A DNA stretch of 27,771 nt from a virus, in the IMG/VR virus record IMGVR_UViG_3300008108_000266, positions 1 through 27,771 of that record; one strand, 5' to 3'. The notes beneath the pieces are model-generated. The model worked only from the letters and a program-made list of their open reading frames with translations. It searched no databases and was not told where the DNA came from. Of this stretch, positions 6,895 to 25,219 are shown one piece after another; the first letter of the stretch is position 1; each line of letters begins with the position of its first letter. The translations under genes were made by a program, and so were the position numbers.

Positions 6895-9092
6895 TAGCGT
6901 CTACCATCCGCACGAATATCAATCTTAGGAACCCCTAGCTGCCATTGTGTACCGCGAGTAGTGGATTCCACCCTAAAGGCCATTTGCCTTCCTCTTACCC
7001 GGGTATACAAAATCTGCCCAAACTGCTGGACGTTGTATGTTTGCTGCCCCGCATAAGACTGCGCAGACGACAATTTAGGAGCTTGTGTAGAGCCGTAGTT
7101 TGATCCCGGATTTTCTCTTGGCCGAACTTTAAACACCACGGAAGGATTAGCCGAAGTTAAACCTGAGGTGTTTGACCCATCAAATGTAATGTCCGGAATA
7201 ATCTGGGACACAAACCCATAACTATGACCATCCCCAATATCAAAATCGGAAGACTGAATGTAAGAATTAATTGGAGCCGGTGGATTAGTAGACCCATCGT
7301 CTACACCTACTTCATGACTGATCAAAAGACCCGTTGGCGTGGTAGCAATTGGGTACGGCCGCAAAGAAGTATCTAGCCATGCTGTTCGGCTCAACGTGCC
7401 GTAATACCAAACCTTTTCCCCATAGTTGTATATGACGTAACGATCTATGACCGTAGAATCTTTAGAGCAATAAAACCACCAAATTTCGGTATACCCTTCG
7501 TTCGTCCCCGCAAAAACTTGCGCAAACTGATCCCGATTAATGTTTTCGTAGACATAAGTTCTGACCGAACAGGGTAGAGTATTTACCCTACCATCGTAAA
7601 CATAGAACTTATCAATGCCCATCCAAAACACAGCGCCAGTAGCCGCTACCATGGAGTTTTGTGAGGCCATGGAGATATTATCGGAGAGGAGGTTAAAGCT
7701 CCACACCAAGGGGAAACCAATGTACTGCATTGCGTACAAGGCGCTGTCTGTCCAAACTAGAACTTCTAAACGAGATTGAAGCGCACCAATGATGGAGGAC
7801 CCACGAGACAAACGGAAACTACCCGCTTGGTTAGTTTCAGTATCCGTCCAATCATAGTAATCTTCCTGATCCGACCAACGGATCAGCATTGGGTCTAGTT
7901 CAGTGCTGTTGTATGCCCCATAGCCATTGCAGCCAAAACAAATCGTGATTCGTGTGGCATCCGACACGAGCACCTGATTTATTTTGCTAGGAACATCGGG
8001 GCCTTGAATAAGAAATCCGCGAGTGCTCCAAGCAGGGGATGCTCCGCTAAGGGGTTGCCATCTGTAAAGCCCTCCGCCTCTCGGAGAAAATAAAAGGTCT
8101 TCCCCGTAGTTGGACTGCGACCAAATACGCAATTGTTGAAGAGGAGCGGAAGAGCCAGAGTAAGGTTCTCCCCAACCGGGGAAGTTTGTGGCTTGATAAA
8201 CAAGCGTCCCGCCTGTATGCGAAACCGCTGTTGTTCCGTCCTGCCCTCGCAAGCCGCCGCTAAATTGATTACCAGCGATAGACGTATAGGTTATATATTC
8301 GCTATCAATCAAAATTGCGCCCGTGCCTGTAAACGCAGAACTATTTACAACAGGGATAGTAGTGACGGAATTGTCAATATTTCCGCCGGGGGCAGCAGGA
8401 AGTGCAGTAGCTACGCCGCCGGGGATAAATCCTCCCCACGGAGAAACGCCCCATCCTGTGCCAACAGTGTTTGTATCTGCACCCACACCTATTTGATAGG
8501 CTGAATCGGTAGCAGACCCGCCGTTTCCGCTATCAGAAGCATTTGCAACGACAGGGGCTCCACCGTTATTAGTAGCAATGTTGCCGGTTACCGCTGCACG
8601 AGCGGATATAGTGTACTGCGTACCACTGATGACTGTTTGTATTTGATACTCTTGATTAAGCACGGCAGCAGTGATATTGCCGCCAAGACTTACTGCATTA
8701 CTGAACGTGACAAAATCACCAACTTGAATAGCGTTGGCTAATGTGTCTGTAACCGTAATAGTTGATGATCCATTAGTCGCAGCAAAAGTGGTGGTGTTGA
8801 GGTTTGTCTCACGGATCGGGGTTATGTCGTAATACTCAGCACCATTCTCCAAGTAAAACTTCAAACTGGTGCCTAGCCCAACAATGTTAAACCCTTTAAG
8901 AGTTACCCAATTCCAAAGAGAGCGGCAAGTCCCTAAAAACGTAGTGTACGTATCCGCTGACCACCCACCAATTTTTTGCGGCATACCGGCACGAAACCGG
9001 ATTTTGTCACCGTCATACCACCCACCTTCGTTAGTAAGGGTAGTAACTTCCCTTACTATCCCCGGCCTAAATTGAAGTTTTTGAAATGGCAT
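6894..9092 (-). CDS. tail hub / tubular protein B-like (P22 gp10, T7 gp12 type)
   Basis: The protein has 732 residues and follows GAGGATTTTT-ATG. The N-terminus (FRPGIVREVTTLTNEGGWYD, then DKIRFRAGMPQKIGGW) is the usual opening of podovirus tail hub proteins. The C-terminal half has regular beta-propeller-like segments, for example MLIRWSDQEDYYDWTDTETN, a bulky VLVWTDSALYAMQYIG and EIWWFYCSKDS. P22 gp10 and T7 gp12 form a hexameric hub at the distal tail. Two beta segments look like insertions: residues about 105-170 with NGSSTITVTDTLANAIQVGD, and residues about 238-300 with GAILIDSEYITYTSIAGNQF. The second closely resembles a segment of the fibre at 11121-12365. Family assignment rests on remembered motifs and gene order and is fairly secure. 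Confidence 0.85.
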   Translation of the reverse strand: MPFQKLQFRPGIVREVTTLTNEGGWYDGDKIRFRAGMPQKIGGWSADTYTTFLGTCRSLWNWVTLKGFNIVGLGTSLKFYLENGAEYYDITPIRETNLNTTTFAATNGSSTITVTDTLANAIQVGDFVTFSNAVSLGGNITAAVLNQEYQIQTVISGTQYTISARAAVTGNIATNNGGAPVVANASDSGNGGSATDSAYQIGVGADTNTVGTGWGVSPWGGFIPGGVATALPAAPGGNIDNSVTTIPVVNSSAFTGTGAILIDSEYITYTSIAGNQFSGGLRGQDGTTAVSHTGGTLVYQATNFPGWGEPYSGSSAPLQQLRIWSQSNYGEDLLFSPRGGGLYRWQPLSGASPAWSTRGFLIQGPDVPSKINQVLVSDATRITICFGCNGYGAYNSTELDPMLIRWSDQEDYYDWTDTETNQAGSFRLSRGSSIIGALQSRLEVLVWTDSALYAMQYIGFPLVWSFNLLSDNISMASQNSMVAATGAVFWMGIDKFYVYDGRVNTLPCSVRTYVYENINRDQFAQVFAGTNEGYTEIWWFYCSKDSTVIDRYVIYNYGEKVWYYGTLSRTAWLDTSLRPYPIATTPTGLLISHEVGVDDGSTNPPAPINSYIQSSDFDIGDGHSYGFVSQIIPDITFDGSNTSGLTSANPSVVFKVRPRENPGSNYGSTQAPKLSSAQSYAGQQTYNVQQFGQILYTRVRGRQMAFRVESTTRGTQWQLGVPKIDIRADGRR

Positions 9093-9105: not shown

Positions 9106-11118
9106 TTATGAGGCAGTAATTAAAATAATACCTTTGGTGCCAGCAACCACAAAATAAGAAGGAGAATACACAGCCGTGTAAAGCTCCCCTTCGTAAGAGG
9201 GCACGTTAGTTGATTTAAATGTAACGCCATCTACAGTCATTTGTACGCTTAGGTAATATTTAGAGCTTATGAATTTATACCCTGCTGCAATAAGCATTCC
9301 ATTAGGCGGTTCAATTGCAAACGACCGAATAAAGGTGTTTGCTTCTGCCATGGTTAAATTAGTCCACGTAGTCCAATCATATGGGGTAGTAATAAGATAC
9401 CCCCCACTGGCTGGACCATCTAATGCAAAAAAGTATCTACTGCTATTTAAATTAGTTGGACTTCTGCGATACTCTATTGATCGCATGATTCTAGTTGAGC
9501 CACCTGTATTGACCGTGGGCACTGGACCAACATTGCCCCAAAGACCAGAAGCAGAGAAAAAGGTCTCTAGCTTATTGACAGATCCCCCCGCTAAACCAAA
9601 CGCAAACCCATAAAGAGGGTCCTCCGTGTAGTACATAGCGTAGTAATTAGATGAAAGAGGCTGAGTACCTGCGGTCCAATTTACGCCATCAGAACTATAT
9701 ACAACATGATCTCCAATCCCAACAAAAGTGTATTTACCAATTCCCGGACCGGGGGTATCCATTTGTGAGCCATACATACCAGCAAGGATAGTAAGACCTG
9801 CCGTAGCGCTACTGAAGTTTTCAGCCCAATTTACGCCATCGGTAGTGCTGTAAATAACTCTGGGTTTTCCATTTTCGGCGGAACCCCCCACAATAACTCT
9901 AGTGCCATCTGTTATTAATGCAAATCCAGAAAAAGAAACATCAGCAGCGGCAGCAGGGAGGTAATATCCGGTTATAGAAGTAAGAGTAGTTGTAGTAAAA
10001 ACTATGGCGGAATTACTTGTAGAAAAGACATACAAGCCCCCACTTATGCCACTTGCGTAGGTGCTGGATAGAATCCTTGAATTACTTGAATAAACAATAG
10101 TAGCAGTGCTTCTGGTAAACCCTGTTGCATACTGTATTTGGTTTCCAACGAACACATATCTTCCAAGAGAAGAACTGTATTCGATTCCATATATGGTTAT
10201 GTCCCCGACAAGATTAGCAGCAGCAGGAGAGTTTCTTTGAACAGTGAAAGCGGTCCCGTTTGTACTAGTAACTAACTGACCTTTTTCTCCACCTATTAAA
10301 AGAGTAGACCCCGTGTAATGCAATGAATAAGCGGATTGTTCTCCGATTGATGCAGTGGCTGTATAAACTGTTGAAAATGCTGCATTACCAGCGGCATTTG
10401 TTCTAATAAAAGGGGCTCCAGTGCTTATTGTATTACCTACTACAACATACAAATTTATAGGAGCACCGGCCCATATTATTTTCCTAATTGATTCTGTCGT
10501 ATTGTTTGCAATATTGATCCATGTAACCCCTGAATCATTAGAATAGATATACCTAGAGTTCGATGACCCCCCAACAGCCACCCATCTTCCGGGAGCCCCT
10601 GACCCAGAGGGATTGCCCCAAGTAACACTAGTAAAACTTTCAGTGACCCCTGCGGGGGCAGAACGAGAAGTCCAAGCAATACCGTCGCTGCTCGTTTTTA
10701 TAAGCGCGCTGTCACCCACAATGACATACACATTGTTTGCATAGTGGATGCTTACTTGATTAGTTTGTCCAGTTACTGCGTTGCTCCATGTAACCCCATC
10801 ATTATTGGAGTACATGATGGTGGTAGCACTAATCGCTACAAATCGATTATTTGTGCTGTCGTAGGTTACGGAAAGATACTCAAGCGAAGCTGAAGTTCCC
10901 GCAGGGGGAGAAATACGAGTCCATGTAGCACCGTTTGTGCTACGCATGATGGTAGCTTTTTGTCCTACAGCAATAAACGTATTTCCAGACCTTGCTACAC
11001 CATTTATGTAATCTACGTACCCATTGTTACCATCGGGAATGTAAACAGACCTATCTGTCCATGTGATGGTCCTGTTTGCCCCGGCCCCCATCATTAGCCG
11101 TTGTGTAGTTGGTTCCAT
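9106..11118 (-). CDS. Asp-box beta-propeller protein, likely receptor-binding tail protein
   Basis: This 670-residue protein consists almost wholly of repeats ending in an Asp-box-like motif: STNGATW (about 60-66), SNNDGVTW (104-111), SSDGIAW (143-149) and SNDSGVTW (193-200). Later come STNGTAF, STTDGVNW, SSDGVNW and TVDGVTF. Units are about 40-60 residues and many contain a beta strand of the form YVxVG or FVAVG. This is the pattern of sialidase/BNR and Ycf48-like propellers, though the Arg triad of a true sialidase was not identified. No signal peptide or membrane segment is visible, as expected for a virion part. The ATG lies 2 bases after the fibre stop without a clear ribosome site, suggesting coupled translation. 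Its place between fibre and hub suggests surface recognition. Enzymatic activity cannot be judged. Confidence 0.75.
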   Translation of the reverse strand: MEPTTQRLMMGAGANRTITWTDRSVYIPDGNNGYVDYINGVARSGNTFIAVGQKATIMRSTNGATWTRISPPAGTSASLEYLSVTYDSTNNRFVAISATTIMYSNNDGVTWSNAVTGQTNQVSIHYANNVYVIVGDSALIKTSSDGIAWTSRSAPAGVTESFTSVTWGNPSGSGAPGRWVAVGGSSNSRYIYSNDSGVTWINIANNTTESIRKIIWAGAPINLYVVVGNTISTGAPFIRTNAAGNAAFSTVYTATASIGEQSAYSLHYTGSTLLIGGEKGQLVTSTNGTAFTVQRNSPAAANLVGDITIYGIEYSSSLGRYVFVGNQIQYATGFTRSTATIVYSSNSRILSSTYASGISGGLYVFSTSNSAIVFTTTTLTSITGYYLPAAAADVSFSGFALITDGTRVIVGGSAENGKPRVIYSTTDGVNWAENFSSATAGLTILAGMYGSQMDTPGPGIGKYTFVGIGDHVVYSSDGVNWTAGTQPLSSNYYAMYYTEDPLYGFAFGLAGGSVNKLETFFSASGLWGNVGPVPTVNTGGSTRIMRSIEYRRSPTNLNSSRYFFALDGPASGGYLITTPYDWTTWTNLTMAEANTFIRSFAIEPPNGMLIAAGYKFISSKYYLSVQMTVDGVTFKSTNVPSYEGELYTAVYSPSYFVVAGTKGIILITAS

Positions 11119-11120
11119 AA

Positions 11121-12365
11121 TTAGTTAGTGTAATTAATTAACGCAGAACCACGCCACGTAGAGCCGCCATTGCTTGTGACAAACATAAAAAGATGAACCC
11201 CGTTTGATATGTTGGGGGGCGCATTTTCTGGCCAATATGTATTCGCCCACCATGTTGGAAGGGCTCCCGAAGAAGTAGTCAACTGCACCGTTAAACTGTA
11301 TACCTCTGATGGTACGTTAGATATAGTGAACGTAGAGTTAGTTGAGATAGACTTGGTAAAATAATTTCCCAACGAACAGTCTACGTTCAATGCTGGAACG
11401 GCCACAGCATTGCTCTTGTATTGGCCGTTAATATATGCGCCCAACAAGGTTTTATTTGTAAGTGCCTGAGCACTAATAGTGTCTACTAAGAATCGCAGAA
11501 GTGAACCCGTTCCAACTACTCCAGTATCTGTGGAGCTATTCCAACTAATGTTCCCGTTAGTGACTAAATTTGCCAAAGAAGCGGCAGGTATCTCAGTCAC
11601 AACAGCACTCGCTGCATGAGCAACGTCTGATGTGCCACCTTGCGCACGAGAAAGGCCGGTAAGCGTATTAGTTGTTTTTCCTGAATAGGTGATTCGCTCT
11701 GAGTCTATCTGTATTGTTCCGCTGCTAGAAAATGCAGTTCCATCTACAAGTGTTAAAGAACTAGCTCCAGCAGCAAGCGCACTTGCCAATGTGGATGAGG
11801 GAAACGCTGTGGCATATGCTGGTGGCAATAACTTTTCATTTACCGTTATGTTTTTACTGGTAGCTGTTTCTACTACCGTCAAGTCGTTCGAAACGGTTAG
11901 GTTATTCCCTACGCGAAAGTTTTGGCTAACTGAATTTAATGCGTCGTATGCGTTAACCCCGTCACAAAGAACAAAGGATGTTTGTCCCGTTGGAATAACT
12001 ACAAAAGCCGAACCGGGAGCGGCTGTTGTACCACCAATGGAAGTGGCCACATAAATCGTAGCCGTATACCCAGAAATATTTTTAATGATATAAAGCTTAG
12101 TGGCAGGTGGCGCATAGACCGCAAAGTTTGTGGCAAGCGGCGATCCTACGTTAAGTTCAAGAACCGCATTCCTTGCTTGATCAGCCGCACCATCCGTGGC
12201 CACTAGTGCATACGGTGTCGCTGTAATAGTGATGGGCTCATAACCGGAAATAGCCTCTTCGATCAAAGTGCCAAGGTTAGTATTCGTGGTAGAGCCCCAT
12301 GTCCCGGACTGCTCTCCGGTCCCAATAAGCTCAATACGTAAATTAGGAGAAAACGTACTTGGCAT
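11121..12365 (-). CDS. tail fibre protein
   Basis: The protein has 414 residues and starts at an ATG behind AAGGAATAGCC, 2 bases after the Rz1 stop. The first 40 residues (PNLRIELIGTGEQSGTWGST and on) match the N-terminal module I associate with phage tail fibres and minor tail proteins. The middle has a strand-rich region with SQNFRVGNNLTVSNDLTVVE, similar to fibre shaft repeats. Next comes a module (about residues 193-258) with GTIQIDSERITYSGK and LSRAQGGTSDVAHAAS that is also present in the tail hub. The C-terminal part is aromatic-rich (PTWWANTYWPENAPPNISNG), likely a binding tip. It is followed at once by the propeller gene, so the two probably form one host-recognition apparatus. Confidence 0.75.
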   Translation of the reverse strand: MPSTFSPNLRIELIGTGEQSGTWGSTTNTNLGTLIEEAISGYEPITITATPYALVATDGAADQARNAVLELNVGSPLATNFAVYAPPATKLYIIKNISGYTATIYVATSIGGTTAAPGSAFVVIPTGQTSFVLCDGVNAYDALNSVSQNFRVGNNLTVSNDLTVVETATSKNITVNEKLLPPAYATAFPSSTLASALAAGASSLTLVDGTAFSSSGTIQIDSERITYSGKTTNTLTGLSRAQGGTSDVAHAASAVVTEIPAASLANLVTNGNISWNSSTDTGVVGTGSLLRFLVDTISAQALTNKTLLGAYINGQYKSNAVAVPALNVDCSLGNYFTKSISTNSTFTISNVPSEVYSLTVQLTTSSGALPTWWANTYWPENAPPNISNGVHLFMFVTSNGGSTWRGSALINYTN

Positions 12366-12367
12366 GG

Positions 12368-12622
12368 CTATTCCTTACTTTTGCCTTGCGGCGTTGTATT
12401 GTTTGACGCATTGGTCGAGGGCAGTTTTAAGCCGGTCTGCTTCGGCAGCGATCCCAACAAGAAATTCTCCATCCTCTCGATGAAGCTCTTTTCCACTACA
12501 GGAGGCTGATCCAGTGCTGGTAGTACCGGACACGGTACTTGTTTCGGCGGGGCGGGGCGATCTGTCGCGCAAGCTGTTACTAAGAGCAGTGGCACGAGCA
12601 TTAATATCCCTAATCTCGGCAT
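12368..12622 (-). CDS. Rz1: Rz1-like outer-membrane spanin lipoprotein, nested in Rz
   Basis: This 84-residue product lies inside the Rz gene in another frame and ends 7 bases beyond it. It starts at an ATG behind GGAGACAGAAAG. The N-terminus MPRLGILMLVPLLLVTAC is a lipoprotein signal ending in a lipobox (VTAC, Cys18). The mature part begins with a Pro-rich run (ATDRPAPPKQVPCPVLPALD). Rz1 lipoproteins sit in the outer membrane and pair with Rz across the periplasm to fuse the two membranes at the end of lysis. Nested out-of-frame coding is the classic lambda arrangement. At 84 residues it is longer than lambda Rz1 (60), with a polar C-terminal tail. Confidence 0.88.
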   Translation of the reverse strand: MPRLGILMLVPLLLVTACATDRPAPPKQVPCPVLPALDQPPVVEKSFIERMENFLLGSLPKQTGLKLPSTNASNNTTPQGKSKE

Positions 12623-12842
12623 CTTTCTGTCTCCTCAACGTATCAGCCGTGTTCTGTAATTGCTGCTCCCGTTTACGTGCTTCTTCTTGCGCCTTGGCGT
12701 ACTCGGCGTACTGCTTGGCTTTTTCCGCATCCCATTTCTGTTGGATTTCGGCTTGGCCAGCAGCGTTGCCTTTATAATACCCTCCCCCGGCTGCCGTGCC
12801 AATGGCAATTACAAAGCCGAGGATGACCCAAGGATTCATCAT
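12375..12842 (-). CDS. Rz: Rz-like inner-membrane spanin
   Basis: The 155-residue protein has an N-terminal membrane segment (about residues 5-22, VILGFVIAIGTAAGGGYY). A long charged coiled-coil region follows, rich in Ala, Glu, Gln, Lys and Arg (about 30-85), then a segment ALSNSLRDRS and Cys residues near 114 and 144. This is the shape of an i-spanin: anchored in the inner membrane and reaching through the periplasm to the Rz1 lipoprotein encoded inside it. The start overlaps the stop of the upstream small secreted gene by ATGA, so translation is coupled. Two adjacent ATGs are possible starts. Together with the endolysin upstream this fixes the region as the lysis cassette. Confidence 0.9.
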   Translation of the reverse strand: MMNPWVILGFVIAIGTAAGGGYYKGNAAGQAEIQQKWDAEKAKQYAEYAKAQEEARKREQQLQNTADTLRRQKDAEIRDINARATALSNSLRDRSPRPAETSTVSGTTSTGSASCSGKELHREDGEFLVGIAAEADRLKTALDQCVKQYNAARQK

Positions 12843-15120: not shown

Positions 15121-15130
15121 TTATACCTCC
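15118..15130 (-). promoter_or_regulatory. strong ribosome site with AUU initiation codon
   Basis: On the minus strand the order is GGAGG, TATAA, ATT. The GGAGG overlaps the last codons of the upstream gene, TAA is that gene's stop, and ATT follows at once. The spacing of five bases is ideal. A TTG one base further on leads to a stop after three codons, so ATT is the only start that opens the long frame. In E. coli, infC and pcnB use AUU and are thereby sensitive to initiation factor 3. Use of AUU here is inference. Confidence 0.6.
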
Positions 15131-15501
15131 GGCTCATCAGGGAAAACCACTGCAAACGGGTCCGTATTAGTCTGCGGAATATCCCGGAGCGCCTGTACGT
15201 ATTGCAACAACGGAGTTAGCGTAGCGGAGCCAGCAAGACCCAAATCAATTAAGTCGCGCTGGCGGTCAACCCTCCACCTAAAAGCCTCAATTCTCTTATT
15301 TCGTTCTTCCCGGACCTTGACCCAAACAGCGTCCTGATTCAACTCCCAGCTTTCTGTCTCCGGCACATAGCGGTAGGAGTTGCCATCAAAGGGGTGCATG
15401 TTTGACGTAACGTCATAGTCATCCCGGTGCAGCTTGTCGCCAGAGTAGATAAAGCCAAGGTCTTCGTGGCTAACATACGTAGGAACATTGACAAGTATCA
15501 T
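15121..15501 (-). CDS. tail fibre assembly chaperone-like protein
   Basis: The start is taken as the ATG at 15501, one base after the stop of the large fibre gene, giving 126 residues; a longer reading needs a TTG inside that gene. The C-terminal half has the layout of phage tail fibre assembly proteins: WVKVREERNKRIEAFRWRVD, then LLQYVQALRDIPQTNTDPFA and a terminal VVFPDEPE. In that family a W..R..RN helix and a Y.QALRDIP motif are typical, and the genes normally follow the fibre they help to fold, as here. The N-terminal part (DLGFIYSGDKLHRDDYDVTS) is less familiar. The gene also carries the ribosome site for the next gene in its last codons. Confidence 0.75.
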   Translation of the reverse strand: MILVNVPTYVSHEDLGFIYSGDKLHRDDYDVTSNMHPFDGNSYRYVPETESWELNQDAVWVKVREERNKRIEAFRWRVDRQRDLIDLGLAGSATLTPLLQYVQALRDIPQTNTDPFAVVFPDEPEV

Positions 15502-15502
15502 A

Positions 15503-18500
15503 TTAAAACTGCCCTGTGTAATAGTCGCCAACTAGCGTTGGGTTAAACGGAAGAATCACCACTCGGTAAATCGTACCCGCAGTTACTGCGATGTTTATGC
15601 CGTCAGCGTTTATGCCAGAAGCCGCCCACGTCAAAGTAGTTACCACTGGGTTAACAGTCGAGTTGTTATAGTCCCCCGTTGTACCGTAAGTAATTAGATA
15701 GCCGACAGCGCCATAACCTAAATACATTCTTCTGACGAATGTTGACGCTGTAGCTCTAAATACCCCAGAGTCATAAATACAACCGGGAGGGGCGATACGG
15801 ATGAAACGCCACTGCCCAATACCAGCCCGAGCCATTATTGCCTTGGAATTTCCTGTTCCTCCGCCACCGCCAAGAGATGATGAGAACCAAGCTGCATCAG
15901 GTGAATAACCGTAAATTTCAACGGTATCGTCGTTCGTCTTAGCACTGTCCCCGCCAAGCAATTCGAAGTCTTGAAACGTACAAGATGGGTTGGGGACAAA
16001 TCGTAAAGTAATCGTTGCCCCCGCTGTTGCAGCAGCATTCCTGTTTCGACTTAATTGGATGTAATGCAAGCCCGTACCAAAATTATTCCAAACAACACTA
16101 ATCACTCTTGCGTTATCTATCGTAGCGCTAGTCGCGGTAAGCCCTGTCCCAGACGCTGTGTATACCTTACCAATGACTAACGCATTTTGTATGTTTCTGA
16201 CTGCCGTATTGTTAGCCACACTATTTTGCGTAGTGTAGTAATCGTTAATTCCCGCATCAGCGGCGGAGGTAAATGTTATCGTGGGGAATGCACAAGTAGT
16301 TGTTTCTGTTGAAGCATTAATACCCGCAAGCTCGTTTGTGAAAACGCCTGATATGTTGTTTGACTTAGCGACGTTAATTGCATTTCCGGGCTGGTTTAAA
16401 TATGAAACGTATGAATTAACTCGAACAAACGTAAATGTTGTTCCGTTTGCCGTGGCCGTAGCATTAACAAAGCCAAATCTATCAGTTAAATTAAATGTTT
16501 TTTGACCGAAATATATGTATTCTGTATAGACGTTGGTTGTTGTCGGTATGCCGGTTCCGGTTATTAAAAAATATCCGGGGTTTCTGTTGAAGCCGCTGGT
16601 TGTTCTACTTAAAGTGATAGTTGAAGATCCGTTTACTGAATCTCCAGTAAGCGTAAAACTTTCTGCTGCACTACCTACAACTGGGCCATCAAAGTAGTAA
16701 TTAAAGTCGTTTCTAATATTTGCGCCAATACCCCAACTTGAGCCGCGCAAATACCCTCGATACCCAAAGTTATTTCTAGAAGAAAATGGCACATCCTGTC
16801 CGCCGTTGTCATTTGCATTTATCCATCCAGCATCTCCAGCATCCACATCAATGAGGCAGGTGCCCTGCGGCACATATGCGCCCCACACTTCTGGTACACA
16901 CGTAAGGTATGCAAAATAGCCAGTAAAGCCGTTTACCGTTCCGTTTGACGTAGAACCAACATTCCACCAAGCAGTCGTAGCTCCAAACGGATTACTTGCT
17001 GTTTTAAAGCACATTACCCCGTTACAGTACAACCTACCGGGGAATGCCGTATCTAACGGATTCCATACCCACGTAAGTATGATCCACTCGTTAATATCGT
17101 TAAACTGCCATACACGGAGAGCCGTGACAATTGCAGCGGGGGCAGTCGTTGCCAACGTGACAGACAAACGTCTATCTACGCCACCTTCGTTAACGATTAC
17201 TTTTATTCCGTTAGCTGCCGCTGCACTACTGGCAACCCAAAACACGTTCTGGTTTACAGTAGTAATGTCATCGACTCTGAACCTCGCTTGGATAGAAAAG
17301 CCTCGCGCCTTGCTGTCCGTTGTCAATGGAAGTGACATTGACTTGGTAGAGAATATACGTTGCAGTCTTGCTGATGGAAACTCTACGGCACCACCTGCCC
17401 CAGTATCAACAAACGGTATACCGCCTACCCACGATGCTCTGTTAGCAGATAGGGCGTAGACACGCCAAACTGTACCGCCTCGATCTTCACCTAGCTGCCA
17501 TGTCCAATATGCGGTAGCAGTGTTGTTGTTGTATACATGGACAAAAGTTCTGCTAGAAATGTCCCCTTCAGTCCAATAGTTGTAATAGAGCGTGGTGGTG
17601 CCGCCAAAAGTAAGCGTGACTTCTTGGGCGCCGTAGCCGCCGCCTGTCAGTGTCCCGGAAACCGTGTTATCTGCTGACCAATACGAGAGATGAAATCTTT
17701 CGCCGTTAATTCGTATGTACACCTCTGATGTTGAAACAACAGACACAGATAGGATTGTCGGCGTAGCTATTGTTCCTGTAATAAGGAACTGGCCTGTTAC
17801 TCGCGTACCGGTTGGGTTTTGGCTTGCATCCCCCGCAAATGCAACAGCATAGTTATACGAATTACCGTCTGCAAAAGTGTCTTCTGTTGGGTCTACATAA
17901 TTTAGCCCCAGCACAAGCTCAGATGTTGATCTTACGTTCCTAGCGGTAGTGGGCCAATTTGTCTCCGCCATGTGTAACAATTCACGTTGATACCAACGAC
18001 CCCCGTTAGTTTGATCGCCTATGTAGTAGTAGTTTCGAAGAAAATTGTTTCTATCCGTAGAGGCTCTTGGAAACCCAACAACAGCATAGAAGTTATAGTT
18101 TGCGCTATCGCTAGTTTGTGCGTTTCTGTCCCAATAATAGTTATCAGGCGTATCGGTGTTGTTAAATCCCCCGCCTTTTTGCAAAGTAAAAAGAGTTCCA
18201 TTATTGGTTGTACCGGCATTAGTCCAAGGCGAATACCCGGTCCCTTCTCCATAAATATTCCAATACTGAGGCTTTTGCCACGTATTAAACTCTAACGTGC
18301 GTTGACGGCTATTAGCCCGAACAATTCCGCTATTAGTAAAAACCCCGTTTACCGTTGGATTACCAGATGCGCCATTGCCATTACTAACATTTATTACCCC
18401 GTCAATACCGGGACCTTGGCTGTAAGTAGCGGAGAGTGTGCGCGGAGTAAATGTCCCATCCCCCGCTGGATTCCACGCTAGTAATCCTGCACTAGCCCCC

Positions 18501-18820
18501 ATCTGCTCTTTGTTTACTGATCTCTTTGCAGGGTATGTTAAAAATACTTCTTTTATCCCTGCCGAAAAATTGACAAGCGCGTTAGCGTTTGTTGATGCGT
18601 AAACCGTGGTACGAGCAAGGGTTGTAGCCCCTGTTAATGTCCCAAGACCTACTTCCCATTCGTTTGTGCCCTGACCGACAATCGCATAATACGTTGTGTC
18701 ATTTATAGCTAAAGCGGCACTAAACGCTTGAAATCCCGCGCTGGTCCCAGCAAGAGTGATAGGCCCCGTACCAACAGTGGTTGTGGACTCTTTTACACGG
18801 TCTGCAACAATAAACGCCAT
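15503..18820 (-). CDS. giant tail fibre with LamG-like domain
   Basis: At 1105 residues this is the largest protein in the window. It follows GAGGCAATT-ATG. Residues 1-105 (FIVADRVKESTTTVGTGPIT through KEVFLTYPAKRSV) match the virion-attachment module I know from many phage fibres. A shaft-like region with short GNPTVNGVFTNSGI segments follows. About residues 485-655 look like a concanavalin/LamG sandwich (GFSIQARFRVDDITTVNQNV, WIILTWVWNPLDTAFPGRLY), a sugar-binding fold. The remainder is beta-rich, with NGSSTITLSRTTSGF similar in style to a segment of the hub. A Gly-rich linker (SSSLGGGGGTGNSKA) precedes the C-terminal part. It probably binds surface polysaccharide. No active-site motif for a depolymerase was recognised. 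The next gene is its likely chaperone. Confidence 0.8.
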   Translation of the reverse strand: MAFIVADRVKESTTTVGTGPITLAGTSAGFQAFSAALAINDTTYYAIVGQGTNEWEVGLGTLTGATTLARTTVYASTNANALVNFSAGIKEVFLTYPAKRSVNKEQMGASAGLLAWNPAGDGTFTPRTLSATYSQGPGIDGVINVSNGNGASGNPTVNGVFTNSGIVRANSRQRTLEFNTWQKPQYWNIYGEGTGYSPWTNAGTTNNGTLFTLQKGGGFNNTDTPDNYYWDRNAQTSDSANYNFYAVVGFPRASTDRNNFLRNYYYIGDQTNGGRWYQRELLHMAETNWPTTARNVRSTSELVLGLNYVDPTEDTFADGNSYNYAVAFAGDASQNPTGTRVTGQFLITGTIATPTILSVSVVSTSEVYIRINGERFHLSYWSADNTVSGTLTGGGYGAQEVTLTFGGTTTLYYNYWTEGDISSRTFVHVYNNNTATAYWTWQLGEDRGGTVWRVYALSANRASWVGGIPFVDTGAGGAVEFPSARLQRIFSTKSMSLPLTTDSKARGFSIQARFRVDDITTVNQNVFWVASSAAAANGIKVIVNEGGVDRRLSVTLATTAPAAIVTALRVWQFNDINEWIILTWVWNPLDTAFPGRLYCNGVMCFKTASNPFGATTAWWNVGSTSNGTVNGFTGYFAYLTCVPEVWGAYVPQGTCLIDVDAGDAGWINANDNGGQDVPFSSRNNFGYRGYLRGSSWGIGANIRNDFNYYFDGPVVGSAAESFTLTGDSVNGSSTITLSRTTSGFNRNPGYFLITGTGIPTTTNVYTEYIYFGQKTFNLTDRFGFVNATATANGTTFTFVRVNSYVSYLNQPGNAINVAKSNNISGVFTNELAGINASTETTTCAFPTITFTSAADAGINDYYTTQNSVANNTAVRNIQNALVIGKVYTASGTGLTATSATIDNARVISVVWNNFGTGLHYIQLSRNRNAAATAGATITLRFVPNPSCTFQDFELLGGDSAKTNDDTVEIYGYSPDAAWFSSSLGGGGGTGNSKAIMARAGIGQWRFIRIAPPGCIYDSGVFRATASTFVRRMYLGYGAVGYLITYGTTGDYNNSTVNPVVTTLTWAASGINADGINIAVTAGTIYRVVILPFNPTLVGDYYTGQF

Positions 18821-18827
18821 AATTGCC

Positions 18828-20300
18828 TCATACGGTATTGTTTACCTGCCAATCTCCGGGCTCTTCCGTTTCTTCCGGGTCCCAATTTGGCAAGGTACTG
18901 CTGTCTATGTTTTGCCAGTTTTCCGGCTGGTTATTCTCTATTGTGCCCCATCCGGGGGCAGTATTGGTACTAACTTCTTGCCACGTGCCTGATTGATTAT
19001 TTTCGGCGGTGCTCCAGCCGGGATTGGTATTGGTATCAATCTCTTGCCAAGTGCCTCCCTGTGCCGTATTTACCTCCCCCCAATTTGATGCGGTATTTGC
19101 CTCTACCGTCTGCCAATTTCCGGGCTGATTGTTCTCCACCTCCCCCCACGCCGGAGAAGTATTGCTGTTGATGTCCTGCCAATCCGGGGTTTGGCTATCG
19201 TTTATAAGCTCCCAAAGGAAGCGACTAAATGCGGTGTCTTGAAGTCGGGAGGACTCAAGAATTGTCGCCGAGAAAAGAATAGATCGATTAAATACCGCAG
19301 ACAATCGAACTGCTTCGGATTGTGCTACCGGATAAATAGCCGTTGAAGATAAAAATGCGTCTAGCTGAATATCTTCATCGATGTTTGTCCCAAAAAGAAC
19401 ATCCCCCGTTTGGTTCTCACTAACACTGATAGCTTCTAATAGCGCCTTAAGAAATACAGCAGTAGAAGATCCTTGATCTACAACCATTACAGTTTCAGCA
19501 CGTTGGGCGAAAGCTGTTTGAGTTCCTGTGCTTGTGTCATAAAATTGGGCATCTTCATCAATATCAGCAGAAAAATCAGCTTGTGCAGACGATAGCCCAG
19601 ACAAATCAGCTTCTTCCAAAACTGACGACACAAAATCAGCTTGAGCCGACTCTGTAGTGCTCGTATCTACCTCTTCATTAACGGACCTAAAAACCGTTAG
19701 CGTCGAATTTTGATCGACGAGCATTTCCACGCGATCTTCAACAACACTAATCAAAAGACTTGAAGTGATATTTAAGTCATACGCTTCTATAGCGTCGGAT
19801 AAAATACCCTGTGAAGGAATACTTCCTGTTTCTATAGAAGAGAAATGACCTTCTTCCGAAATATTTCCATTAGCGGTTAAAAGCCTAGTCAAGTTGTCGT
19901 TGAAAGTCGCGGATTCATTCGTGGCAGCGACAACATCGGCTTGCGCAGAATTAACGACACTAAAATCTGCCTCCTCCAGTACTGAGGCTAATGCTGTCTG
20001 AAGGGCCGATAAAGAGGCATCAAATTGAACATCTTCGTCAATTTGGCCATCAAAAACAACTTGTACAGAGACAGTACTACTAGTGTCTATTTCTTCGCTT
20101 ACGAAAGAGACTATTGTAGATACTGCATTGACGATAGAAGAAACATCTATCTCTTCGCTTCTCGTTACATCGACAACAAAGAATGCGGCTTGGGAAGAGG
20201 CAAAATTAACTTCTTCTGAAACAGTGGCAAAGACTATCTGTGCGCCACCGGGGAGCGTGGAAAAAGGCGCTTGTGAAAAAGCTGTAATGCCATACAACAT
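18828..20300 (-). CDS. two-tier repeat protein, probable virion appendage
   Basis: This 490-residue protein starts at an ATG behind GAAGGCGC. After a short N-terminus (27 residues) come seventeen consecutive units of exactly 20 residues (28-367). They are marked by an acidic start such as SEE, LEE or DED and often contain SAQADF or similar. Residues 8-27 look like an eighteenth, weaker unit. From Trp363 to the end there are eleven units of exactly 11 residues, each starting with Trp, alternating between types like WQEIDTNTNPG and WSTAENNQSGT. The protein is very acidic and has no Cys, membrane segment or signal. Strict repeat length suggests a solenoid or fibrous fold. I recall Trp-repeat tails in phage structural proteins but no named family. 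Context among neck and fibre genes points to a fibre or adaptor. Confidence 0.8.
   Translation of the reverse strand: MLYGITAFSQAPFSTLPGGAQIVFATVSEEVNFASSQAAFFVVDVTRSEEIDVSSIVNAVSTIVSFVSEEIDTSSTVSVQVVFDGQIDEDVQFDASLSALQTALASVLEEADFSVVNSAQADVVAATNESATFNDNLTRLLTANGNISEEGHFSSIETGSIPSQGILSDAIEAYDLNITSSLLISVVEDRVEMLVDQNSTLTVFRSVNEEVDTSTTESAQADFVSSVLEEADLSGLSSAQADFSADIDEDAQFYDTSTGTQTAFAQRAETVMVVDQGSSTAVFLKALLEAISVSENQTGDVLFGTNIDEDIQLDAFLSSTAIYPVAQSEAVRLSAVFNRSILFSATILESSRLQDTAFSRFLWELINDSQTPDWQDINSNTSPAWGEVENNQPGNWQTVEANTASNWGEVNTAQGGTWQEIDTNTNPGWSTAENNQSGTWQEVSTNTAPGWGTIENNQPENWQNIDSSTLPNWDPEETEEPGDWQVNNTV
18831..19214 (-). repeat. eleven 11-residue (33-base) Trp repeats
   Basis: From Trp363 to the C-terminus every eleventh residue is Trp over eleven units, with a short twelfth (WQVNNTV). 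Neighbouring units alternate, giving a 22-residue super-period: WQxIxxNTxPx and WGxxENNQxGx. The first unit overlaps the last 20-residue unit by five residues, so one repeat type passes straight into the other. Confidence 0.85.
19200..20219 (-). repeat. seventeen 20-residue (60-base) coding repeats
   Basis: Residues 28-367 of the repeat protein divide without any insertion or deletion into seventeen units of 20. Loose consensus: a small or acidic residue, Glu, acidic, x, Asp/Gln/Asn, Phe/Val/Thr, Ser, then polar residues and an alternating hydrophobic strand. Examples are LEEADFSVVNSAQADVVAAT and NEEVDTSTTESAQADFVSSV. A degenerate unit precedes at 20220-20279. Confidence 0.8.
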
Positions 20301-20507: not shown

Positions 20508-21080
20508 TTAAACGGCATCTGCCGAGAAGGTATAAGTTACGTTCAGGGTGTCGCCGTTCGCCACAAGCTTGTCGCCGCCTGTAAAGTCGCCTTCGGAGAA
20601 CAAGATGCCCGACGTACCCGAAGCAACGGTTGCCAAAAACGCACCCGCAACTGTCGTTGTGTTATTGATGTTGAACACCGCAGGGCTTGCCGAGTTGTCA
20701 ATAACAGACGGATCAGCCAAAGTCGCTGTTCCAAACGTCACCGATTTACGGCTACCAGAATAGTTGGTGTCTTCAGTCCAGCCAATATGAGAAGCCAGCG
20801 TATCGCCCGGGGCATATACCGTACCCGAACCGGGACCTGTTACTAAGCCGAGATACCAAGCAGCGGTGTAGCCGGATGCCTTAAAGTATTTAGTGTTTAA
20901 GTCTTGTAGTCCTTCATTAACAACGAGATTGTGGAAAGTATCTTCCCACTTCAAATTACCATCAACATCAAAACATTTGACATTGAATACCCCACCAAAC
21001 TTGACACGCCCATCGCTGGTCGAGAGCCTTCCAAGGCCAGCGTGGACTGTCTCCCCCATTTGCGATTTTGCTGTAGGCAT
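20508..21080 (-). CDS. phage structural protein (190 residues)
   Basis: The ATG at 21080 is chosen because AGGAGTGATC lies directly in front; a GTG two codons earlier overlaps this site and is unlikely. The protein has an N-terminal strand-rich part (KFGGVFNVKCFDVDGNLKWE) and then DTFHNLVVNEGLQDLNTKYF. A segment YTAAWYLGLVTGPGSGTVYA follows, and a Ser/Thr/Gly-rich beta region with a hydrophobic finish closes it. The KWEDxxHNLVVNEGL and AAWYxGL segments are familiar to me from small structural proteins of environmental phages. Its setting between a tail adaptor and a repeat protein supports a virion role. No enzyme features are present. Confidence 0.75.
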   Translation of the reverse strand: MPTAKSQMGETVHAGLGRLSTSDGRVKFGGVFNVKCFDVDGNLKWEDTFHNLVVNEGLQDLNTKYFKASGYTAAWYLGLVTGPGSGTVYAPGDTLASHIGWTEDTNYSGSRKSVTFGTATLADPSVIDNSASPAVFNINNTTTVAGAFLATVASGTSGILFSEGDFTGGDKLVANGDTLNVTYTFSADAV

Positions 21081-21097
21081 GATCACTCCTTTTACGA

Positions 21098-22057
21098 TTA
21101 CGGATTGACTCTAATTTTTGCTTGGCCATCGCGATAAGCATCGCCACGTTCAAGCCCTGTACCAAGACGATTAAGCTGAGACAGAGCGTCCATGAACTTC
21201 TTCTCATAGTACGCCATCATGTCCTGTTCGCCCTTCATATAAATGTACCCCTCTACCAGCGCCCCATACAGCAGCGCAGGAGAATATGTGTCGCCTAGCC
21301 AAGTCCTGCCATTGGTATTACCCACACTGGCTACAGGAACAGTAAATGCAGTACCGCCGGGAAGCGTAGCAGATACCGTATCCCCCACCACATAATTAGC
21401 ACCACCGTCTACTATTGCCACAGAAGTAACGCCCCCGCCTGACACCACAATGTCTGCGGTAGCACCACCCCCAGTTCCATTCGTAAGCGGCACTTCAAAA
21501 TACGTCCCGTTTGTATATCCAGACCCCGCTGTGATCGCGCCAAAAGTAAGAATAGGCCGTTGGATAATTGATTCTGGATAGTAGTAGTAATGCAGTTCTA
21601 CGCTATACGCCGCATTAGGGGTAGGGCCCAACAAAAAGCTCAATTCATCTGTAATTGTGCTAGAAGCCACAGTTGGCCCAAACAAAGCGTAGTATTTTGG
21701 AACACCACTTGTTGCGGCCGTTGGGTAAACCTCTCGAATGTAATTAACATCCTTGTTGAGTAAGTAAGTATAGGTCCCTGTATTACTTATCACAGCCATC
21801 GAAAATACCGACAAGAAGTCAGAAGGGCATGACAAGTAACTGTTGCCGTTCGTAGTTATACCCGTGACATTTTTGCGAAGAGAGGGTATTTGAACGGTGT
21901 TATAAACACGTTTTTCTGCTTGACGAATAAAGGTGTTTATCTGTTGCGTAGGACCAGATTCACTCGTGCCAGTGCCAGAAACGCTTGTCCAAGTGTTGGC
22001 TGGGAAGTCGTTTTGCAGGTAGTTCTTGATAGCGATAAAAAGTTCGTTGTATGTCAC
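21098..22057 (-). CDS. tail adaptor (tubular protein A-like) with inserted beta module
   Basis: The start codon is GTG at 22057 behind GAGGTAGCC; this gives 319 residues. The N-terminal part (about 1-167) has the adaptor-fold pattern of podovirus tail tubular protein A: a helical start, NTFIRQAEKRVYNTVQIPSL, YLSCPSDFLSVFSMAV, GVPKYYALFGPTV and SVELHYYYYPES. This fold then resumes at about 250 with TWLGDTYSPALLYGALVEGY and a helical YMKGEQDMMAYYEKKF. In between (about 168-248) sits a Gly-rich beta module (ITAGSGYTNGTYFEVPLTNG, VTSVAIVDGGANYVVGDTVS), which looks inserted. Such adaptors join the portal to the tail hub. The pattern is convincing, but the exact homologue (T7 gp11 or P22 gp4 type) is not certain. 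Confidence 0.8.
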   Translation of the reverse strand: MTYNELFIAIKNYLQNDFPANTWTSVSGTGTSESGPTQQINTFIRQAEKRVYNTVQIPSLRKNVTGITTNGNSYLSCPSDFLSVFSMAVISNTGTYTYLLNKDVNYIREVYPTAATSGVPKYYALFGPTVASSTITDELSFLLGPTPNAAYSVELHYYYYPESIIQRPILTFGAITAGSGYTNGTYFEVPLTNGTGGGATADIVVSGGGVTSVAIVDGGANYVVGDTVSATLPGGTAFTVPVASVGNTNGRTWLGDTYSPALLYGALVEGYIYMKGEQDMMAYYEKKFMDALSQLNRLGTGLERGDAYRDGQAKIRVNP

Positions 22058-22827: not shown

Positions 22828-23499
22828 TTAGTACCCCAAATCAGGCGTTAGATAGACACTCGCAATGTCTCTATCTTCCTGTGCCGCCCTCGCAAACTCT
22901 TCCTCATACAACTGTTTCAACACAACTACGCGATCTGGTGCTTTCTTCAATGCAATGTAATAGGCAAGACCTGCCGCCAAACATGGCAAGAATCGAAATA
23001 CAACATCAGACGTATTGGTATATGCCCCTACATCCTCGATTCGACGGACGGCGTAGTAGCGAAAAATGTAGGGCTCACTGTTGTCTGGCGCGGGGTAGAC
23101 AAACAGCTTTGGTGAACTTGTACGTTGAACGTAATACTGAGCAGGACGGGCTTGCGTATTCTTGTCAGGCAAATGCAAGTATTCGTTCTGGCTGATTCGA
23201 TCAATAGTAATGTCTTGCTGGTTCTGACCAGTGCCTGTGCGGATAACCGCAGACAGTACATTGACGGTATCGGCAGGGAGCGTGTATTCAGCTTGCCCAA
23301 ACACCATGGACACTTGCCGCTGCTCAATTGTCCAAAGGTTTAACCCTCGGTTAGCCCATTCAAGGAACAACAAGTTCAATGACCTGCGCGCAGTACGCAT
23401 GTCATAACCGGTACGATCCTCTAGACCGCACCGCTCATACGCCTCTTCAATTAGCTCATCAAACTCTAAGTTGAAGGTGGTTGTCCCTGAGGTAGCCAT
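22828..23499 (-). CDS. head-to-tail adaptor (P22 gp4-like)
   Basis: The 223-residue protein has the marks of the P22 tail accessory factor gp4 and related adaptors. These are EFDELIEEAYERCGLEDRTG (about 12-31), YDMRTARRSLNLLFLEWANR with GLNLWTIEQ, then QAEYTLPADTVNVLSAVIRT, RISQNEYLHLPDKNTQARPA and a YYVQRTSSPKLFVYPAP strand pair. The C-terminal helices contain FLPCLAAGLAYYIALKKAPD and a charged finish. Such proteins attach under the portal ring and begin the tail tube. The ATG follows GGAAGAAATAACCT, 3 bases after the stop of a small basic protein. The remembered family signature is strong, and the gene order (head genes before, tail genes after) agrees. Confidence 0.88.
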   Translation of the reverse strand: MATSGTTTFNLEFDELIEEAYERCGLEDRTGYDMRTARRSLNLLFLEWANRGLNLWTIEQRQVSMVFGQAEYTLPADTVNVLSAVIRTGTGQNQQDITIDRISQNEYLHLPDKNTQARPAQYYVQRTSSPKLFVYPAPDNSEPYIFRYYAVRRIEDVGAYTNTSDVVFRFLPCLAAGLAYYIALKKAPDRVVVLKQLYEEEFARAAQEDRDIASVYLTPDLGY

Positions 23500-23502
23500 A
23501 GG

Positions 23503-23811
23503 TTATTTCTTCCTAGCTTTTGCCTTCACTACAGGTTTGGCTTTAACTGTTACTTTTTTCTTCACTGCGCCGCCTTTTTTCATACCAGCAGGAGCACGTG
23601 CGGCCGCTATCAATTTTTCTTTGTAGCTAAGATTTTCATCTTGTTGTTTTTTCTTCCTTGCAGCTAGAGCCCTTGAAGCGCCTTCTTTATCTATTACGGA
23701 CCTTGCTACTTCAGCTAAGGGAGCCGTTGCTAATGAAAAAAAACCTTTTTTAGGAACAACAGCATTCGGGTTAGCAGGACCAGATGCAGTTGCAGTGTAA
23801 GTCTTTGGCAT
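23503..23811 (-). CDS. small very basic protein with GMKKGGAVKKK motif (1)
   Basis: This 102-residue protein has an excellent AGGAGATAGAT-ATG start. The N-terminal half is neutral and Ala/Pro-rich, with FFSLATAPLAEVARSVIDKE. The second half is helical and basic (ASRALAARKKKQQDENLSYK), then has GMKKGGAVKKK and a Lys/Ala/Val tail like that of H1 histones. The motif and its DNA are shared with the upstream neighbour at 23822-24088. Such tails suggest nucleic-acid binding, perhaps a packaged DNA-associated protein, but no family or function is established. It precedes the head-to-tail adaptor. Confidence 0.7.
   Translation of the reverse strand: MPKTYTATASGPANPNAVVPKKGFFSLATAPLAEVARSVIDKEGASRALAARKKKQQDENLSYKEKLIAAARAPAGMKKGGAVKKKVTVKAKPVVKAKARKK
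23551..23583 (-). repeat. 33-base direct repeat, copy 1
   Basis: This copy matches 23858-23890 in 32 of 33 bases by eye. Both encode MKKGGAVKKKV in the same frame of adjacent small basic genes. It suggests duplication or recombination between the two genes. Confidence 0.85.
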
Positions 23812-23821
23812 ATCTATCTCC

Positions 23822-24088
23822 TTATTTGGATTTTCTAGCCGCAGTTTTCTTAGCCGCTACTTTTTTCTTCACTGCCCCGCCTTTTTTCATGCCCACAGTA
23901 GGGCGCGCTGTTCGTTGCAGTTTTGCTGTGTACTCGGCTTGGGCCTGTTGTTCTCTTTGTTTTTTCGCCGAAGCAGCTGCTAATGCTTGGGCTTGAGCAG
24001 CTTGAGCGGCTTGAGCGGCTTTTTGAGGGGCCGTTATTGAATCTCCAAGTCTTTTAAGTGCTTTTTTAGCAAGGTCAAAACCAGCCAT
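23822..24088 (-). CDS. small very basic protein with GMKKGGAVKKK motif (2)
   Basis: The ATG at 24088 is chosen because AGGAGAGAAAC stands before it; a longer frame would reach into the upstream gene. The 88 residues begin MAGFDLAKKALKRLGDSI. A low-complexity Ala/Gln helix (AAQAAQAAQAQALAAASAKK) follows, then GMKKGGAVKKK and a Lys/Ala tail. The composition suggests a coiled coil plus a nucleic-acid-binding tail. It shares the motif, its DNA and the stop/ribosome-site junction sequence with the downstream neighbour, so the pair may be a tandem duplication whose first halves have diverged. No named family is recognised. Confidence 0.7.
   Translation of the reverse strand: MAGFDLAKKALKRLGDSITAPQKAAQAAQAAQAQALAAASAKKQREQQAQAEYTAKLQRTARPTVGMKKGGAVKKKVAAKKTAARKSK
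23858..23890 (-). repeat. 33-base direct repeat, copy 2
   Basis: See copy 1 at 23551-23583. The single difference is a synonymous G/C change in a Gly codon (GGC against GGG). The two copies start 307 bases apart. Confidence 0.85.
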
Positions 24089-24098
24089 GTTTCTCTCC

Positions 24099-24422
24099 TT
24101 ATTTGCAAACAGCGCCGCCAGATTTGTAGCGCTGGCCTTTTGACGCACTGAATTTCTTCTGATTCAACCCCGCCTTGCCGCTGTGTTTAACACTGGGTGG
24201 CTTCGTCTCTTTAATCATCTTGCCGATATCCGGATCACGACGATCTGGAGTTACTGCATCGCCTACACGATTGATAGAACCGCCACTGCCAAACTTCATG
24301 CCCTTACTGGTCTTGCTAAATTTCTTAGCAACCTTTGTCGGAATGCCAACCTTTTTCGCAAAAGCCGGATTATGCGCCGCCGCATCCATTAATTTCTTCT
24401 GCTTTGCACTTTTAGCTGGCAT
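24099..24422 (-). CDS. small basic protein ending in GGAVCK
   Basis: The 107-residue protein starts behind GGAGATCAGAA. Its N-terminus MPAKSAKQKKLMDAAAHNPA followed by FAKKVGIPTKVAKKF resembles a motif I recall in many phage small proteins (AxxNPxFAKKVGIP), and distantly DUF3008-type proteins. The middle is Gly/Ser and Lys-rich, with KGMKFGSGGSINRVGDAVTP. The C-terminus is QRYKSGGAVCK, a variant of the Gly-Gly-Val motif of its neighbours. It is strongly basic with no membrane segment. A nucleic-acid or capsid-interior role is possible. The gene overlaps the upstream coiled-coil gene by 11 bases. Confidence 0.72.
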   Translation of the reverse strand: MPAKSAKQKKLMDAAAHNPAFAKKVGIPTKVAKKFSKTSKGMKFGSGGSINRVGDAVTPDRRDPDIGKMIKETKPPSVKHSGKAGLNQKKFSASKGQRYKSGGAVCK

Positions 24423-24946: not shown

Positions 24947-25219
24947 TTAGCAAATGCGAGTCTTCTTGCCGCGCGCAGCGCCATTGCCACGCGACTGAAC
25001 CATGCCGCCGCTGGCATAACCCATTGCCATTTTTTTGCGTGGGCTAACAGCGCCCCCCGCTGCATAGCCCATCATGCCGCCGCCCATTTTTTTCATGGGC
25101 ATAGCGTCCATTTCATACATGTCGTCGCCTTCCATGCCCATTTTGGTGGACTTGGCCAGCTTCACGCCTTTATTCATCGACATGCCCGACTTCTTGCGCT
25201 TCTTGTTCATCTTCATCAT
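24947..25219 (-). CDS. Met/Lys/Gly-rich small basic protein
   Basis: The 90-residue protein is preceded by AGGAGCCGAATC. It is extremely rich in Met, Lys and Gly. It opens MMKMNKKRKKSGMSMNKGVK, has an acidic patch EGDDMYEMDAM in the middle, and two copies of a Gly motif (MGYAAGGAV and MGYASGGMV). The end is GAARGKKTRIC with a terminal Cys. Low complexity rules out a confident fold. The MGYAxGG motif recurs in variant form in neighbouring genes and in the large internal virion protein, hinting at a shared partner. I recall similar Gly-Gly-Met/Val tails in phage small proteins but no known function. Confidence 0.7.
   Translation of the reverse strand: MMKMNKKRKKSGMSMNKGVKLAKSTKMGMEGDDMYEMDAMPMKKMGGGMMGYAAGGAVSPRKKMAMGYASGGMVQSRGNGAARGKKTRIC

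Follow-up and report, generated by a model that had tools for sequence, protein, structure and literature searches.

A 490-residue protein encoded in the tail module of a freshwater virus of bacteria belongs to a real, strikingly regular repeat family, which is carried by phages with SU10-type adaptors related to HTVC023P and is absent from the family libraries used here. The reading favoured here, at a probability of about 0.45, is that this protein is a length-adjustable, beta-rich tail-fibre rod, the C-terminal Trp array of which would join the rod to the next fibre.

Two strictly spaced arrays in one protein

The repeat-protein gene lies at 18828..20300 on the minus strand of the window (the whole stretch of DNA analysed, 27,771 nucleotides of IMG/VR record IMGVR_UViG_3300008108_000266), where the ORF list gives it an ATG start, 490 codons and a stop. 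Periodicity was scored as BLOSUM62 self-similarity by lag and compared with 3000 shuffles. Residues 28-367 (19200..20219, minus strand) had been predicted to divide into seventeen 20-residue units without gaps, and the self-similarity of residues 1-367 bears this out, with peaks at lag 20 (z = 9.5), lag 40 (z = 8.3) and lag 60 (z = 7.4) against a shuffle maximum of 4.5 at any lag. The decayed eighteenth unit proposed for residues 8-27 mostly dissolves on comparison with relatives, in which its 'SQAPFS' segment forms part of a conserved N-terminal motif (MLYGITAFSQAPFSTLPGGA, residues 1-20; 20241..20300, minus strand), and only its last six or so residues fit the unit. Across residues 363-490 (18831..19214, minus strand) the peaks fall at lags 22 (z = 13.7), 44 (z = 12.3), 66 (z = 11.1) and 11 (z = 9.0), the shuffle maximum being at most 4.6 over both arrays, so that the alternating 22-residue super-period is confirmed. 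Tryptophan is confined to this array, at residues 363, 374 and onwards to 484 with a spacing of always 11; the expected spacing is therefore exact, while the expected count of eleven units is refined to 12 Trp, that is, eleven full units and a truncated twelfth. The overlap between the arrays is a real change of register, as originally predicted: the first Trp occupies column 16 of the final 20-mer, replacing the Phe that is the family consensus there (47%). By the same self-similarity measure, no comparable period was found in four adjoining structural proteins (best z 2.5), and no W-x10-W array was found in the other window proteins checked, a single W-x10-W pair being present in the 1105-residue fibre.

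In the family-wide profile of the 20-residue unit, position 2 is acidic in about 80% of units, usually as Glu, positions 4/6 and 16/20 are hydrophobic, and Lys, Arg and Cys are nearly absent. The whole protein contains 77 Asp and Glu against 10 Lys and Arg, with one Lys and no Cys. Such patterned hydrophobics, together with the near absence of Lys, Arg and Cys, fit beta strands, and on this pattern the protein is fairly likely to be a beta rod.

A widespread family that changes length in whole units

Searches of Pfam, NCBIfam and PDB returned no match to the repeat protein and those of PHROGs only sub-threshold ones, in line with the earlier expectation that no described family spans both arrays, and no known tail fibre profile in Pfam, NCBIfam or PHROGs matches the protein or its relatives. 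A tblastn search of phage records with the whole protein also returned no match, a result that low-complexity filtering probably makes uninformative, since the homologue from phage DSL-LC04 finds only itself when used as query. A hand-written consensus of the Trp array does match DSL-LC04 (E = 3e-3); the further listed matches (E about 0.1-0.4), nearly all to tape measure proteins of Paenibacillus phages, seem fortuitous. Scans of viral contigs with a single sequence and with an alignment profile yielded 48 and 392 relatives, respectively, and the loci analysed in detail are the best 80 of the 392. None of 39 pattern matches in bacterial and archaeal genome contigs was confirmed as a relative. 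The repeat protein is hence no isolated oddity, having a relative in hundreds of viral contigs and its Trp spacing in named phage records, and the family, at least hundreds strong in viral contigs, all but escapes Pfam, PHROGs and NCBIfam, in part probably because searches mask it through their low-complexity filters.

Relatives span roughly 6 to 34 units of 20 residues. In pairs above 60% identity, the gaps in the first array, some of which are split by the aligner, are almost all of 20, 40, 60, 80 or 100 residues, the exceptions being rare shifts by a single residue at one site and minor differences in the N-terminal linker, while the Trp array differs in length by 22 residues. In one relative (L097, compared with L085, L086 and L089), a single exact 60-bp tandem duplication shows directly, barring an assembly artefact, how a unit is gained. 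Of 62 distinct proteins extending into the Trp array, 52 have an uninterrupted run of 6 Trp and six a run of 4; the window type and its partial copy have 12, and two further proteins, both ending at or next to contig ends, have 5. The Trp count is thus even in every complete relative (4, 6 or 12), which makes 22 residues the step by which this array grows or shrinks, and the tail after the last Trp is usually six residues long. The inference that strict spacing reflects a constraint is upheld, because relatives at about 27-47% identity retain the 20/22-residue quantum and the differences between close pairs come in complete units; one-residue indels recurring at one site leave the spacing very strict rather than absolute. 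These quantised indels provide a clean natural experiment on length change in phage fibres.

Genomic setting of the repeat gene

The late structural module runs in the order capsid, two SU10-type adaptors (PF24175), g192, repeat protein, 1105-residue fibre, chaperone and GH19-like endolysin. The adaptors are adaptor A (223 aa; 22828..23499, minus; PF24175 E = 3e-12) and adaptor B (319 aa; 21098..22057, minus; PF24175 E = 3e-20), followed by the upstream virion protein g192 (20508..21086, minus; phrog_8123 E = 2e-20; PDB 26la chain U, 'Structural protein', E = 3e-7). Downstream of the repeat gene lie the fibre gene (15503..18820, minus) and a tail fibre assembly chaperone of the Phage_tail_APC type (15121..15531, minus; PF16778 E = 6e-11; phrog_4912 E = 1e-13). 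The repeat gene thus has the place of a tail-fibre gene, inside the tail module with adaptor genes on one side and distal fibre genes on the other, and its product very probably belongs to the virion as part of the short-tail fibre apparatus.

This setting is conserved. Nearly all relatives keep the order adaptor A, g110, adaptor B/g139, g192, repeat protein and fibre; g192 lies at most 1.2 kb upstream of the repeat gene in 52 of 59 testable loci, and a fibre-type N-terminal domain follows directly downstream in all 59. The domain is of the 1105-residue fibre type in 52 loci and of the g414 type in seven, which include HTVC023P, HTVC027P, DSL-LC04 and 023Pt_psg01 and in which the gene gaps are 1-55 bp. 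Most loci match the 1105-residue fibre only over residues 1 to about 120: an N-terminal domain of about 105 residues is conserved, and the remainder is usually exchanged, a sequence pattern as expected for an anchored, swappable receptor-binding fibre. In two loci (L029 and L068), the region downstream of the repeat gene matches the fibre N-terminal domain three times, which hints at several fibres, either alternatives or mounted together. In all three family members followed by a g414-type gene, the even Trp units carry Gln at +7, a suggestive feature in three lineages only.

Several further features of the window and its relatives were recorded. Within adaptor B (21098-22057, minus), an inserted domain at residues ~170-245 matches tail fibre/baseplate PHROGs (phrog_5342 E 1e-9) and seems optional, because the adaptor of some relatives is shorter, at about 225-242 aa. 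Two virion proteins (6894-9092, residues ~240-301, and 11121-12365, residues ~176-265) both match phrog_4406 over a short module of the type 'SEYITYTS..GNQFSGGLRGQDGT...H.GG', suggesting from sequence that this module may be shuffled among structural proteins; the locus region overlapping adaptor A in some relatives (L072, L089) also matches the g732 protein. The small, mostly Lys-rich proteins g102, g108, g107 and g90 (23503-24422 and 24947-25219, minus) have a '(K/S/A)GGAV' motif in common, which makes them look like derivatives of each other, and g102 and g108 show the highest dN/dS of the neighbourhood (0.48-0.72). A 670-residue protein (9106-11118, minus) is weakly similar to the YCF48/BNR beta-propeller (PF14870 E 0.008, under the curated cut-off). 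After the GH19 endolysin, an 84-residue ORF with lipobox LLVTAC overlaps a 155-residue membrane-anchored ORF in another frame (12368-12842, minus), and the two look like an embedded Rz1/Rz spanin pair.

Conserved ends, variable middle and competing readings

The best-conserved stretches of the repeat protein are its N-terminus and the beginning of the Trp array, the least conserved its middle, with a mean pairwise identity of 0.68/0.61 for the N-terminal motif against 0.46/0.36 for the array and an invariant set of R, L, W, E, I, D, W, W and W at the start of the Trp array (49 sequences). The protein as a whole diverges far faster than its neighbours, even where the flanking genes are nearly identical. 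Relative to one locus (L061), identity is 100% for the capsid, 90% for g192 and 87% for the fibre (117 aligned residues) against 47% for the repeat protein; relative to another (L072), it is 87% for g192 and 89% for the whole fibre against 43%. Rapid divergence and recombination are inseparable in these two comparisons because synonymous sites are saturated. The sole unsaturated comparison, over the first 109 residues against L041, gives a dN/dS of 0.14, as under purifying selection, and positive selection on the repeat protein is hence unsupported. The Trp array co-varies with the N-terminus of the downstream fibre beyond the level of the upstream genes (partial rho 0.345, p = 0.002). In a finer test, however, neighbouring 20-mer segments co-vary with it likewise, so that gene linkage can explain the association, and a specific co-evolution of Trp array and fibre is not claimed.

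A divergence so far above that of the neighbouring genes would also be expected if the repeat protein were itself the receptor-binding fibre, with the 20-residue array as its shaft and the Trp ladder as an adhesive tip stacking on surface glycans, Trp being a residue that commonly stacks on sugars. Hypervariable islands of aquatic phages, moreover, typically hold tail fibre and recognition genes (PMC3909814). The start of the Trp array is nevertheless among the most conserved parts of the protein, the opposite of a typical receptor-binding tip, and a separate fibre with a conserved anchor and an exchangeable distal part is encoded directly downstream. This reading is considered unlikely, and it is probably the fibre encoded beside the repeat gene that grips the host cell.

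The regularity of the array likewise bears on whether the protein is ordered at all. AlphaFold2 monomer predictions gave no usable model for either the 490-residue protein with 26 relatives (pLDDT 30.6) or the 202-residue minimal member L109 with 49 sequences (pLDDT 42.7), so that claims about the fold can be no better than the sequence pattern allows. The two predictions weigh neither for nor against the earlier proposal of one solenoid coil or hairpin per 20-mer and a Trp ladder at the end. Such very low confidence, the highly acidic composition and the variation in unit number among relatives would suit a low-complexity acidic tether, serving as flexible spacer or virion decoration with no ordered rod. 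Monomer predictions from shallow alignments often fail for trimeric fibres, however, and the exact 20-residue phase, the patterned hydrophobics and the conserved acidic position represent more order than a tether needs, which makes this alternative improbable. Curli repeats are similar in length to the 20-residue unit. A curli-like or other functional amyloid outside the virion is nonetheless hardly credible, even though uncultivated HTVC023P-type pelagiphages are reported to carry CsgA/B repeat genes (PMC9599517), given that no Pfam model of curlin (CsgA/B) or of any other repeat matches and that the gene lies in a tail module between adaptor and fibre rather than in a curli operon.

A proposed connecting rod of the fibre apparatus

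The conserved ends, the variable and quantised middle and the adjacency to a fibre gene fit a rod connecting the tail hub to the next fibre. In the connecting-rod model, the conserved N-terminus (GITAFSQAPFS) would anchor the chain on the adaptor or tail hub, and the 20-residue array would form an elongated beta-rich shaft, probably trimeric, that could lengthen or shorten by complete 20-residue (60-bp) units. At the C-terminal end of the chain, the Trp array would then act as a conserved joint holding the N-terminal domain of the fibre encoded immediately downstream, a role that is tentatively assigned by analogy. The Trp ladder thereby offers a concrete, testable hypothesis, in which a conserved joint would let short-tailed aquatic phages exchange their distal fibres. 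An extension of the model, in which a rod of 20n residues carries a Trp dock of 22m residues and the number of Trp sets how many, or which, following fibres attach, is doubtful; if true, the 12-Trp version of the window would carry about twice as many fibres as the usual 6-Trp versions.

The general plan of N-terminal motif, beta-type repeats and Trp ladder, placed ahead of a fibre gene, extends beyond the version seen in the window, because named phage records carry a 22-residue array and the 11-residue Trp spacing in the same position. In DSL-LC04 (WJZ48131.1) and HTVC023P (gp68), a hypothetical protein directly before the g414-type fibre gene likewise combines an array with a Trp ladder, but its repeats are of another kind: the unit measures 22 residues (z 11.4 and 11.1, respectively) and is of the VTGVQATxxVGxVTV type in place of the Glu-anchored 20-mer of the window. 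The N-terminus of gp68 is similar to that of the window protein, although gp68 is encoded far from the adaptors, unlike the window gene, and the only significant stretch between the DSL-LC04 and window proteins is the Trp array (E = 5e-8). The terminal Trp at 11-residue spacing number four in DSL-LC04, three in HTVC023P and two in 023Pt_psg01, and in HTVC027P the repeat is looser and two Trp stand 15 residues from each other. In DSL-LC04, the annotated 'tail tape measure' (L052:13141-15516, minus) holds an almost perfect 17-residue tandem repeat, MDLSSAQGTLGGPSYAG.

Comparison with known systems

Several known types find no support in the sequence. No T7-type fibre N-terminal domain was found here, choline-binding or CROP-type 20-residue aromatic repeats gave no Pfam match at E up to 0.1, and the adenovirus-type triple beta-spiral, with its repeat of about 15 residues and Gly/Pro turn, is at odds with a period of 20 and no conserved Gly/Pro column.

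The closest functional likeness is to phage SU10, where Trp 839, 847 and 857 of a dock loop each bind one subunit of the trimeric short fibre, via Ile24, and where the adaptor bears a long fibre made up of a proximal and a distal trimer (PMC9509320). The likeness to the proximal long-fibre protein gp12 and to the gp17 dock lies in an adaptor-proximal fibre component and in Trp at about one per ten residues engaging a trimeric fibre; no sequence similarity was found between the repeat protein and SU10 gp12 or gp17, and carrying the precedent over to the Trp array is an inference from analogy. Three or more Trp about ten residues apart, as in SU10, are present in the window (12) and in complete relatives (4-12), while the more distant 023Pt_psg01, with 2, falls below that number. 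The SU10 dock sits in a beta-propeller loop of the nozzle protein gp17, whereas the window Trp array is on a separate repeat protein, and SU10 has three Trp spaced 8-10 residues apart where the window family has 4, 6 or 12 at a spacing of 11. Not every Trp number seen (2, 3, 4, 6 and 12) is divisible by three, which counts against a trimer dock.

Tail fibres of pelagiphages show fibre-specific repeat patterns, no sequence similarity between phages and high variability (PMC3909814). The window protein resembles such aquatic phage fibre shafts in being repetitive and highly variable, and differs from them in its conserved C-terminal array and in a period that is strict over 17 units. In function it is most likely a normal component of the fibre apparatus, unusual in its construction and kin in kind to the repetitive fibre proteins of other phages.
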